DNA of 64,000 nucleotides from Anaerolineaceae bacterium (lineage in GTDB: Bacteria > Chloroflexota > Anaerolineae > Anaerolineales > Anaerolineaceae), in the NCBI GenBank assembly GCA_016927865.1, contig JAFGLU010000118.1, positions 24,634 to 88,633 of the forward strand, written 5' to 3'. Position 1 is the first letter of the stretch, and each line of letters opens with the position of its first letter. Shown piece by piece: positions 5,071 through 63,918 of this stretch. Position numbers and translations under genes: made by a program. A model generated the notes under the pieces. The model worked only from the letters and a program-made list of their open reading frames with translations. It was not told the DNA's origin and made no database searches.

Positions 5071-5478
5071 TGGGTCACCTCGGGGAGCAGAGTAGGGGGA
5101 ACAGATAAATATATTATACCGTTTCCCGTGTTCGTCTGAAGACCAGGCACTCATTTGTGGTAGAGGCAGGTCTTTAACGCAGGCTGCGCCATCTGGTTGC
5201 ACGATTTATCGGCGGGCAAGGCGACTGGGCATTCGCGCAAGACCTGCCTTATTTGCACGACCCGGCGGGTCTGCCGGGTGGGCAAACAACCCCTGCCCGC
5301 CAGGACATTTTCCACCCATCCCCGCCTGGCCTGACTTAAAGACCCGCTGCTACGCAGAGAGTTTACCCAAATTCGGTGAGTAGATACGAGGTTTTGGAAT
5401 AAAAACCCGTGATGCGTTTACCTTGGCATAGGGTGCAAATTTGGGCGCCGTCGATTCAATTTGTGCTACAATTTTTTT

Positions 5479-22081: not shown

Positions 22082-24040
22082 TTAATGTTGTTCGCGGAAA
22101 ACGGCCCGCAGCGCAATGGCGGCGGGTTTGGGGTTGCCCTCAAAGTCAATGACCGAAGTGTTGGCTGTGCACGAGAAGGAGTCGTGTCCCATCCAGAAAA
22201 TGACGCCGCCGCAGCGAGGGAACTTGGATTTGAGGCTGCGGGCCACCACTACCAGCGCATCGGCCTGGCGAGCCTGGCTCCAGGAGACGAACTCTTCGAG
22301 GTTAGCAGGTTCAAGCCCCTTTTCCTGCACAAATTCGTTCCACTCAATCCACCAGGCGGTGCGCCGCCAAAGGGGGTTGTCGGCATTGGCCGGCATTTCG
22401 TCGTACTCGCCTTTGTAGCGGCGGATGACTTCAACCGGGCTGGCGCCTGGGGCGCCGACTTCGGAATGGAACAGGGCATCCACGTTGGCCCAATATTCCT
22501 GCCAATCCATTTTGATCTCAGCGATCTTCCAGGGGCCGTGTACGTCCCAGTGCAAGCCCTTGCCAAAGTCGGCGGGGTCGGCGGAGAAGCGCGGGCCCGA
22601 GGAGGAGGAGGGCAGGAAGCGCCGCCCGGGGTCTTCGCGTGCCACCACCTGGGCCAGGCGGCGGATGAGGGGGTGGTGGGTATCGACGGGTTTGCCGCCG
22701 CCGGCTTTGCGCCCGTCCAGTCCGCCTTGCAGCTCGTTTCCGCCGCACCAGCACAACAGGCTGGCGTGGTGCTGCCGCCGGGCGATGTAGGACTCGGCGA
22801 TGGCGCCCAGGGCTTGAATGCTGGCGGCGTCTTCGGGGGGCCAGTTGTCCATGCCGGAGGAGGATAGGGGGAACTCTTGCCAGACCAGCAAGCCCAGTTC
22901 GTCGCACAGGCGGTAGAAGATATCTTTTTCCAGGTAGGCCCCGCCCCACACGCGCAGCACATTGCAGCCCAGGTCGCGGTACAACTCGAGGCGTTTGCGA
23001 TATTCTTCGTTGGGCACATCGGCGAAGTTGGGGCGGATGGGCGTCCAGTTGAAGCCCTGCAGGAATAAGGGTACGCCGTTGATCGTGCAGATCCAGGGGT
23101 CGGCTTCGGGAGCGGCGCCTTCGCAGGGCAGCCAGCCCACGCGTTTGAAGCCCACCCGGCGTTGGGTCTCGTCATGAACCGTTCCGGCGGCATCCACCAG
23201 GCGGCAGGTGAGGGTATACAGCGGTTGGGCGCCCGATCCGTTGGGCCACCAGGCCTGGACGGGCAGGCCCAACCATTCGACACCGGCGGCGAAGACGGCC
23301 GGGTCGATTTGCGCAGCGCGCACCTCGCCATCCGAGCCGGTCAGGGAGAGTTGCACCTGGGTGTCTTCTGTGCCGGATGCCAGGCCGCGAATTTGCAGGC
23401 TGCCGCTGTTGCTGCCGGGGTCAAAATCGGCGATGCAGCGCAGCGTTTCGATCTCCAGCCCGTCGCTGACTTCCAGATAGATTTCATCCCAAATGCCCAT
23501 CTGCACCAGACGCGAGGTCCAGTCCCAGGTGTAGTAGTAGCGGGGTTTCCAATCGGTCATCCGCGAGGTGTAGCCGAACTGGCCCAACCAGCGGGCCGGT
23601 GGCTGGAACACAATTTGCAGGCGGTTGTTCCCCGGTTGGATGAAGGGTGTCAGGTCAAAGACGTGGGGCAGGAAGGCGTTTTCAAAGTGGGCCACTTCTT
23701 GCCCATTCAGGCGCACCAGCCCGCGATCATCCAGGCCCTGGCAGTGCAGGCGGATGCGCTTGCCGGGCTCAACCCACGGCGCGGGCAGTTCGGCCTGGAA
23801 AATCCAGTCGCGGTTTTCCACCCACTCGCACTGGCGAGCGTTGAGACCAATGTTCCAATCTGGAAGAATGCCGGCTTTGTGCAGGGCACTTTGCACCGAT
23901 CCGGGAACGCGGGTGGAAATGGAAGGAAATTCGGCGGCGACGGCGGTACGCACATCCCTCGCGGGAGAGAACAGCCATTGATAGGGTGGAAATCCGGCCA
24001 GTTCCCAATCCACCCACGAAAGACTGTAGCGTTGGATCAT
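22082..24040 (-). CDS. Glycoside hydrolase family 2, beta-mannosidase-like
   Basis: RIRLHCQGLDDRGLVRLNGQEVAHFENAFLPHVFDLT; PIRPNFADVPNEEYRKRLELYRDLGCNVLRVWGGAYLEKDIFYRLCDELGLLVWQEF; CWCGGNELQ. Confidence 0.9.
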   Translation of the reverse strand: MIQRYSLSWVDWELAGFPPYQWLFSPARDVRTAVAAEFPSISTRVPGSVQSALHKAGILPDWNIGLNARQCEWVENRDWIFQAELPAPWVEPGKRIRLHCQGLDDRGLVRLNGQEVAHFENAFLPHVFDLTPFIQPGNNRLQIVFQPPARWLGQFGYTSRMTDWKPRYYYTWDWTSRLVQMGIWDEIYLEVSDGLEIETLRCIADFDPGSNSGSLQIRGLASGTEDTQVQLSLTGSDGEVRAAQIDPAVFAAGVEWLGLPVQAWWPNGSGAQPLYTLTCRLVDAAGTVHDETQRRVGFKRVGWLPCEGAAPEADPWICTINGVPLFLQGFNWTPIRPNFADVPNEEYRKRLELYRDLGCNVLRVWGGAYLEKDIFYRLCDELGLLVWQEFPLSSSGMDNWPPEDAASIQALGAIAESYIARRQHHASLLCWCGGNELQGGLDGRKAGGGKPVDTHHPLIRRLAQVVAREDPGRRFLPSSSSGPRFSADPADFGKGLHWDVHGPWKIAEIKMDWQEYWANVDALFHSEVGAPGASPVEVIRRYKGEYDEMPANADNPLWRRTAWWIEWNEFVQEKGLEPANLEEFVSWSQARQADALVVVARSLKSKFPRCGGVIFWMGHDSFSCTANTSVIDFEGNPKPAAIALRAVFREQH

Positions 24041-24131
24041 AAAAACTTCCTTTCTGCATGAGGAATACCTGCTGGGTACGTTCACTGCCAGTATAGCACA
24101 GGAAAGCCGGGGGAAAACCAGTCCATTCTTG

Positions 24132-24179
24132 GCTCTCAAGGAGTTGCCGTGGTGAACCCCGCCAATTCCCAATGACCCG
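24132..24179 (+). repeat. Palindromic element family B, internally deleted copy
   Basis: aggagttgccgtggtgaaccccgccaattcccaatgaccc, sharing ends with 25366-25440 and 26424-26535. Confidence 0.7.
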
Positions 24180-24243
24180 TTTACTTTGGGTAGTTCTGCT
24201 GTTCTGTTGTCGTTTGGTAACTACTCACAGTTGGGGTGAAAAA

Positions 24244-24300
24244 ACCTGAATTTGAGGTGTTTATGGGGGCTTCGCCCCCATAAACACCTCAAATTCAGGT
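24244..24300. repeat. Palindromic element family A, copy 4
   Basis: 27-bp perfect arms ACCTGAATTTGAGGTGTTTATGGGGGC / GCCCCCATAAACACCTCAAATTCAGGT, loop TTC. Confidence 0.97.
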
Positions 24301-25271
24301 ACTTCCCCAACCCCGGTGAGTAGATACGTCGTTTGCAACTCTTGAATTACGCGAAGAATCGCCTCGCGCAATTCCGGTGGATCAACGATGGCTGCCTGGT
24401 TTCCAAGGCCAAAAACCAACATTTTCGCCAGGTCCATTGATTCGACTTGAAAACGAAGCGTTTTCCATCCATTTTGTGGGTCCGTCCAGGTGATTTGAAA
24501 ACGCCCCGGCATCAGCGATTGCACAAATCCCAGCCGGTCGGGATGAATCCGCAGGGTGAAGGTGTATTCCGCAATGGATTCGCGAAATTCCTTCAGGTGC
24601 TCGTGCCAAAACTTTATCAGGTCAAAGCCGTTTTCCCGCTCAAAATGCGTATTCTGGATTTGGATCGAGTGGAAGCGGGCGATGCGATACATCCGGTAAG
24701 CACTATCCCGCTTTGCGATCAGGTACCATTGAGAGGCTTTTGCGACCAGGCTGTAAGGCTCTAGAAGCCGTTCGGCAACCTCCCCATTGAAATTCTCGTA
24801 CGTTGCCTGGATCCGGTAATCTTCGAACACCGCCTTCTGTAGATCGCTCCAGAACGGCAAGGGAGTATCATCTTGCCACCACCAGACCGGATCAAGATAA
24901 ATACGCTGCCGCACCTGCTCCGCAATCGACTGCTGTTCGAGGGGGAGAGCCGCTGAGAGCTTGTGCTGAAGGCGTTTGGTTGCTTCCCCCAGGCCAATAT
25001 CATTCATCAGTTGCGTGTTTTCGGAGATAAACAATACCCGAATCTCCGCCTCATTCAGCCCGGTAAGGGTCGTGCGGTAATTTTCGTCTAGAGCTATGCC
25101 GCCCCCATGCCCACCATCCGCGTATATCGGGACCCCAGCGTACGATAGTGCATCGATATCGCGCAAAATGGTCCGCCGGGAAACGCCCAGTTCCTCGGCC
25201 AGGGTTTGCGCGGTTAGTTTCCCCCTGGTTTGCAGCAGTAGCATAATTGAAAGCAGCCGGTCAGCGCGCAT
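24261..25271 (-). CDS. WYL-domain HTH transcriptional regulator (DeoR/YafY-like)
   Basis: MRADRLLSIMLLLQTRGKLTAQTLAEELGVSRRTILRDIDALSYAGVPIYADGGHGGGIAL; WYLIAKRDSAYRMYRIARF. Confidence 0.93.
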   Translation of the reverse strand: MRADRLLSIMLLLQTRGKLTAQTLAEELGVSRRTILRDIDALSYAGVPIYADGGHGGGIALDENYRTTLTGLNEAEIRVLFISENTQLMNDIGLGEATKRLQHKLSAALPLEQQSIAEQVRQRIYLDPVWWWQDDTPLPFWSDLQKAVFEDYRIQATYENFNGEVAERLLEPYSLVAKASQWYLIAKRDSAYRMYRIARFHSIQIQNTHFERENGFDLIKFWHEHLKEFRESIAEYTFTLRIHPDRLGFVQSLMPGRFQITWTDPQNGWKTLRFQVESMDLAKMLVFGLGNQAAIVDPPELREAILRVIQELQTTYLLTGVGEVPEFEVFMGAKPP

Positions 25272-25365
25272 AAGCTCCTCTAATTCTTTCTAGTTCAGCT
25301 TGGGTGACAATAGGTGTCACCCAAGATAGTTTATCATGATCCTGAAAGAATGATCCTAATTGGAG

Positions 25366-25440
25366 GGTCATTGGGAATTGGCATGGTGCCCCCCGCATTT
25401 TGGGGTGTGAGAGCGGCAGCTACCACGGCAACTCCAAGAG
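25366..25440 (-). repeat. Palindromic element family B, inverted copy
   Basis: Reverse complement reads ctcttggagttgccgtggtagctgccgctctcacaccccaaaatgcggggggcaccatgccaattcccaatgaccc. Confidence 0.7.
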
Positions 25441-25467
25441 AACCTAATTGGATGGAGGATAAACGTA

Positions 25468-26289: not shown

Positions 26290-26423
26290 CAGATTTGCGG
26301 ATATAAACTCAGGGCTATAAGAACCTCAAAATCGCTTTCCTTCCGAATTTTCGGACAGATTCTAGGGAAAAATCCTATCAGCTTAGGGCGATTGCCCTGC
26401 TCTCGTTCTACAAGCGGCACAGG

Positions 26424-26535
26424 GCTCTCTAGGAGTTGCCGTGGTAGGTACCGCATTTAGGGGTGTGTGGGTGGCGAAGCCACTCAAACACCCCTAAAAA
26501 TGCGGATTTCGCCACGCCAATTTCCAATGAACCCG
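26424..26535 (+). repeat. Palindromic element family B, full copy
   Basis: ccgcatttaggggtgtgtgggtggc-gaa-gccactcaaacacccctaaaaatgcgg core at 26451-26505, within aggagttgccgtggtag...cacgccaatttccaatgaaccc. Confidence 0.8.
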
Positions 26536-61593: not shown

Positions 61594-61648
61594 GAATGAA
61601 TCACTACGTGTCCCTCACAATCTTTGTGGGGGACACGTGTTTTTTAGT
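61594..61648 (+). terminator. Terminator-like direct repeat, copy 1
   Basis: gaatgaatcactacgtgtccctcacaatctttgtgggggacacgtgttttttagt; CGTGTCCC/GGGGACACG stem plus T6. Confidence 0.9.
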
Positions 61649-63863: not shown

Positions 63864-63918
63864 GAATGAATCGCAACGTGTCCCTCACAATCTTTGTGGG
63901 GGACACGTGTTTTTTAGT
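63864..63918 (+). terminator. Terminator-like direct repeat, copy 2
   Basis: gaatgaatcgcaacgtgtccctcacaatctttgtgggggacacgtgttttttagt; 2 mismatches in 55 bp to 61594-61648. Confidence 0.9.

Follow-up and report, generated by a model that had tools for sequence, protein, structure and literature searches.

MITEs are short (about 70–300 bp), non-autonomous DNA transposons that have no transposase coding capacity and share terminal inverted repeats (TIRs) among their dispersed copies. Rewriting of a gene end by a mobile palindrome is an already known kind of event. In the gene for the amidase ECA3499, an RU-1 element at the 3′ terminus abolished the normal stop codon and supplied a new C-terminus and a new stop beyond the conserved domain (Delihas 2007, PMC2759123). 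GTAG/CGTC REP palindromes often supply the TAG stop codon of neighbouring ORFs (PMC3733652). Rickettsia palindromic elements (RPEs), which are palindromic repeats of ~150 bp, are translated within host proteins (PMC10969869). Members of the IS66 family carry GTAA at their ends and duplicate 8 bp of target DNA (PMC11946415).

We analyzed a stretch of 64,000 nt from an Anaerolineaceae bacterium (the window; its genome is named G000). In it, a WYL-family transcriptional regulator gene ends inside a palindromic element. Very probably, a MITE with IS66-type ends inserted near the end of this gene, duplicated 8 bp of its target, exchanged the tail of the predicted protein and was tolerated. As in the RU-1/ECA3499 case, a MITE-like repeat remade the end of a conserved gene. 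The element family and the host are different. Moreover, it was protein lengths that pointed to the RU-1 fusion; at the WYL gene, an empty site and an 8-bp target-site duplication (TSD) are seen directly. REPs are also short genomic palindromes whose ends give stop codons; however, they are 20–40 bp long and associated with tyrosine (RAYT) transposases, whereas the WYL-locus element has 8-bp TSDs and IS66-type ends. RPEs lie in frame within proteins and are read through, and their peptides have host sequence on both sides. The WYL-locus element instead ends the protein: the frame stops in the element, and host codons come only after the stop.

Results

The element and its boundaries

The WYL regulator gene (24261–25271, minus strand) encodes 336 aa, of which the last 21, together with the stop codon, are supplied by the element. 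The protein had the N-terminal HTH, the WYL domain and the C-terminal WCX of WYL-domain regulators. HTH_11, WYL and WCX (residues 235–312) were all above Pfam cut-offs (1.8e-17, 1.3e-14 and 2.4e-10, respectively). NCBIfam gave weak HTH matches, all below cut-off. The translated C-terminus reads ...QTTYLLTGVGEVPEFEVFMGAKPP*.

The element is a complete MITE copy of 111 bp at 24217–24327, with TIRs GTAACTACTCA / TGAGTAGATAC. Its ends were fixed from 68 copies read in G000 and from the corresponding empty site in G003, a genome of the same genus. One end has GTAA; the other, which faces the gene, has a variant, GTAT. In its center is a palindrome (24244–24300) consisting of two 27-nt arms (24244–24270 and 24274–24300) and a 3-nt loop. 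The arms were 100% complementary, whereas the longest arm in first-order Markov copies of the window was ≤10 bp. Folded as RNA, the palindrome gave −49.3 kcal/mol, and the folding z was −11.7 for 24210–24335. The 111-bp size, the shared TIRs, the 8-bp TSD and the G003 empty site are all as expected of a MITE. A preliminary description had placed the element at 24244–24330; the palindrome stands, but that interval covers only part of the element.

The ancestral gene end

Among 151 genomes searched for orthologs, G003 alone had a close one (L032). It was 93% identical to the WYL regulator over residues 1–315. Other WYL orthologs were at most 53% identical, and the empty site is known from this one same-genus genome. 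The upstream divergent hydrolase gene was also alignable between the window and G003. The G003 gene has no element and ends ...LQTTTQQQDDPK, i.e. ...QTTTQQQDDPK. The insertion was absent from all orthologs examined.

In the window, the element is flanked by the 8-bp repeat GTCGTTTG (CAAACGAC in gene sense), which occurs once in G003. The left copy (24209–24216) and the right copy (24328–24335) are identical at 8 of 8 positions. The order in gene sense is CAAACGAC, the element, CAAACGAC again and then AACAGAACAGCAGAACTACCCAAAGTAA. With the target restored, the window gene would read ...LQTTTEQQNYPK*. The insertion point was thereby resolved to the base, eight codons ahead of the old stop. The displaced ancestral end (CAAACGACAACAGAACAGCAGAACTACCCAAAGTAA, 24181–24216, minus strand) reads QTTTEQQNYPK* together with the flank and matches the end of the G003 gene. 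The old tail TEQQNYPK* is kept just downstream of the element.

These results decided between two events that the preliminary description had named together, insertion at the gene end and its replacement. The element was inserted, and the old end was not deleted, as its tail and stop persist at 24181–24216. The ortholog alignment that the same description had set as its test gave a close ortholog that has no palindrome and a different C-terminus (...TTTQQQDDPK*).

A misjoin of the repeat into the gene end could be imagined in this fragmented assembly, as contigs C42, C92, C101, C112, C50 and C51 stop inside element copies. At the WYL locus, however, both flanks follow the ortholog continuously beside an exact 8-bp TSD, which a misjoin would not make. 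This copy also has its own variant ends and is near only a few other copies. An assembly artefact was rejected because of the exact TSD, and we consider it extremely unlikely.

The reading frame through the element

The frame crosses into the element one base past its edge. The T315 codon spans the junction: its AC is host sequence and its G belongs to the element. A GTAA end would put TAA in frame at once. Here GTAT gives TAT (Tyr), so the frame stays open over 21 codons until it meets a TAA in the second arm. The element-derived coding sequence (24264–24326, minus strand) corresponds to residues 316–336, YLLTGVGEVPEFEVFMGAKPP, and all 21 aa lie within the element. The new stop codon TAA (24261–24263, minus strand) is part of the hairpin's 3′ arm. 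It was correctly recognized from the start that the WYL ORF ends inside a palindromic element and that its stop is in the far arm of the 27-bp palindrome. Judging from the reading frame and its sequence, the new tail would be translated.

The new tail and the conserved domains

The 336-aa protein was modeled using AlphaFold2. The last helix covers residues 299–319, and most of the new tail had pLDDT <50, with about 40–50 for the last ~16 residues. The model suggests that the element-encoded tail, which lies beyond the WCX domain, is probably disordered. Native C-termini past residue 312 also differ in length and sequence among WYL orthologs. Compared with the G003 ortholog, residues 1–315 had a dN of 0.033, a dS of 0.232 and a dN/dS of 0.14, a low ratio that mostly dates from the time before the insertion.

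Eight ancestral residues were exchanged for 21 element-encoded ones. An altered end of this kind might harm the protein, and the insertion would then be an early step in the decay of the regulator. We regard this as improbable. The HTH–WYL–WCX region is whole and under constraint, the ortholog C-termini after residue 312 are variable, and the tail is modeled as unstructured. The most likely reading of the WYL locus is that a MITE entered a gene end that tolerates change, with a near-neutral outcome.

The hairpin and the transcript end

In gene sense, the hairpin is directly followed by TTTTTT (24239–24244, minus strand), which starts 16 nt past the stop codon. A terminator scan and the fold indicated that the WYL gene end has the pattern of an intrinsic (Rho-independent) terminator, a stable hairpin followed by a U-tract, as a match to the consensus. 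The hairpin and TTTTTT may possibly act as a transcription terminator.

The captured end might even be functional, with the hairpin and U-tract serving as a terminator or mRNA stabilizer and the fusion being kept by selection. A ribosome stopping at UAA would then mask most of the 3′ arm of the hairpin, and termination would be coupled to translation. The 27-bp stem (−49 kcal/mol) with its T-run, the stop 16 nt ahead of it and a downstream gene on the same strand (22082–24172) agree with this reading. However, the hairpin is constant in the family wherever it is inserted, so its presence needs no selection. Moreover, a long T-run after the hairpin is missing in most other copies, and no ortholog has the insertion. 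Selection for a functional end is thus unlikely, and near-neutral insertion is the reading that we follow below.

Copies of the element in the genome

The 68 complete copies read were mostly 108–112 bp. GTAACTACTCA-type ends bound the copies on both sides across the genome, and most copies had GTAA ends. In 45 of the 68 copies, the flanking 8-mers matched at 7 or 8 of 8 positions, whereas 0.74 copies were expected when flanks were shuffled. The WYL-locus element is a member of this family.

In 61 copies the arms were perfect over 20 bp or more, with 44 different arm sequences, indicating that the palindrome remains perfect as its sequence changes. Arm homogenization or core inversion would explain arms that are perfect yet variable. 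The 44 sequences are distinct 22-nt inner arms, and the loops GAA and TTC were about equally frequent in the 61 copies.

A covariance model built from 21 copies picked up scores of copies in G000, in a list that entered many copies once per strand and with at most 150 candidates scored. Beyond this genome, it detected relatives of the element in further genera and families of the order, G110, G005, G097, G095 and G103 being the most notable. The exact half-element pattern was not found in seven near relatives. A 19-nt end pattern had two matches in 85,000 genomes, L125 (an Anaerolineales MAG) and L126 (Alishewanella). L125 bears just one end, lacks a palindrome and was rejected as a further element. 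Such elements seem to be little described in the literature for this lineage.

Several side observations were made on related sequences. Minimal elements of ~44–57 bp, with terminal repeats and without a long palindrome, were found in L082 (1456–1512) and L090 (1210–1253). A sequence at 5363–5394 of the window, TTACCCAAATTCGGTGAGTAGATACGAGGTTT, resembles the right end of the element plus flank at 24303–24334 and is possibly a relict half copy. Where contigs of G000 break inside element copies (the starts of C42, C92, C101 and C112 and the ends of C50 and C51), 87 bases are kept each, suggesting that the hairpin or the repeat halts assembly there.

The window also contains other repeats. Short inverted repeats of a second family (GGTTCTCTTGGAGTTGCCGTGG / GGGTCATTGGGAATTGGC) are located at 24130–24178, 25362–25447 and 26400–26470. 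The copy at ~25362–25447 separates the WYL gene from the divergent hydrolase gene; it is missing from the G003 ortholog and is flanked by the repeat CCAATTAG. Two 55-nt copies of another sequence, at 61594–61648 and 63864–63918, are 96% identical and 2270 bp apart; each contains a ACGTGTCCC...GGGACACGT hairpin with a T-run after it.

The likely mobilizer

The MITE family shares GTAA ends (in most copies) and 8-bp target duplications with the IS66 family, but has no transposase. Of the published IS66 signature GTAAGCG, the MITE matches GTAA only; IS66 elements of relatives share the local ends. In G045, a genome of the same taxonomic family, a 1571-bp element (L098) has GTAACTACTCAGCC at both ends and an IS66 transposase (PF03050, 1.5e-41). 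Over 14 nt these ends do not differ from the common MITE end, and only 3 of 8 positions agree between the flanks of L098 itself. L097, L122 and L099 of relatives are IS66-transposase elements with similar ends. L122 has a TSD matching at 7 of 8 positions, and L099 has the ends GTAACCGTTCAG and an 8/8 TSD. When 11-mers were shuffled, 0 of 1000 trials gave an inverted pair like those of IS66 elements.

PF03050 was not found in G000, which is 84.5% complete and fragmented at repeats. On contig C7 (L064), an isolated terminal repeat had no recognizable transposase-length gene beside it among the listed ORFs, and it was rejected as an autonomous partner. We infer the mobilizer from relatives because G000 yielded no IS66 transposase. 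As the MITE ends match both ends of an IS66 element of the same taxonomic family, IS66-type mobilization of the MITE family is likely.

Other genes closed by copies

Apart from the WYL gene, ten ORFs that are 100 aa or longer run into copies. Three of the ten had Pfam support: a NUDIX hydrolase (L131, 1010–1504), a PadR regulator (L154, 890–1504) and an LGT-family lipoprotein transferase (L179, 1313–2119). The stop codon of each is the TAA of the element's terminal GTAA. The copies at all three have 8-bp duplications, and all three stops are downstream of the matched domain. Same-genus NUDIX orthologs run a few variable residues longer. The remaining seven ORFs lacked any Pfam match and are unlikely to be genes.

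The family might repeatedly provide a ready-made gene end, with GTAA giving UAA in one frame and the core giving a strong hairpin, so that insertions close to 3′ ends, of which the WYL, NUDIX, PadR and LGT genes give examples, would preferentially be tolerated or even favoured. We hold this wider proposal to be doubtful. Cases as few as these do not show that gene ends are favoured targets.

Discussion

We propose the following course of events. A non-autonomous palindromic MITE with IS66-type ends landed eight codons before the WYL stop and duplicated 8 bp. The frame passes from the target duplication into the element, and past the terminal repeat only thanks to GTAT. Translation would proceed across the first palindrome arm and halt at the TAA in the second. 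The product would exchange eight variable residues for a 21-residue, probably unstructured tail. The insertion was probably tolerated because its site is beyond the WCX domain. The hairpin and U-tract may also terminate the transcript. In this course, the sequences directly show the insertion, the TSD, the ancestral end, the frame and the membership in the MITE family; translation, near-neutrality, terminator activity and IS66-type mobilization are inferences.

The WYL case establishes no new principle. It is clearly documented, with an unusually clear empty site, and gives a base-resolved before-and-after case of a mobile palindrome altering the C-terminus and stop codon of a conserved regulator. 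The GTAA ends of an IS66-type MITE are able to give stop codons to several genes. If the proposal of a ready-made gene end were true, the MITE family would remodel C-termini and transcript ends genome-wide.
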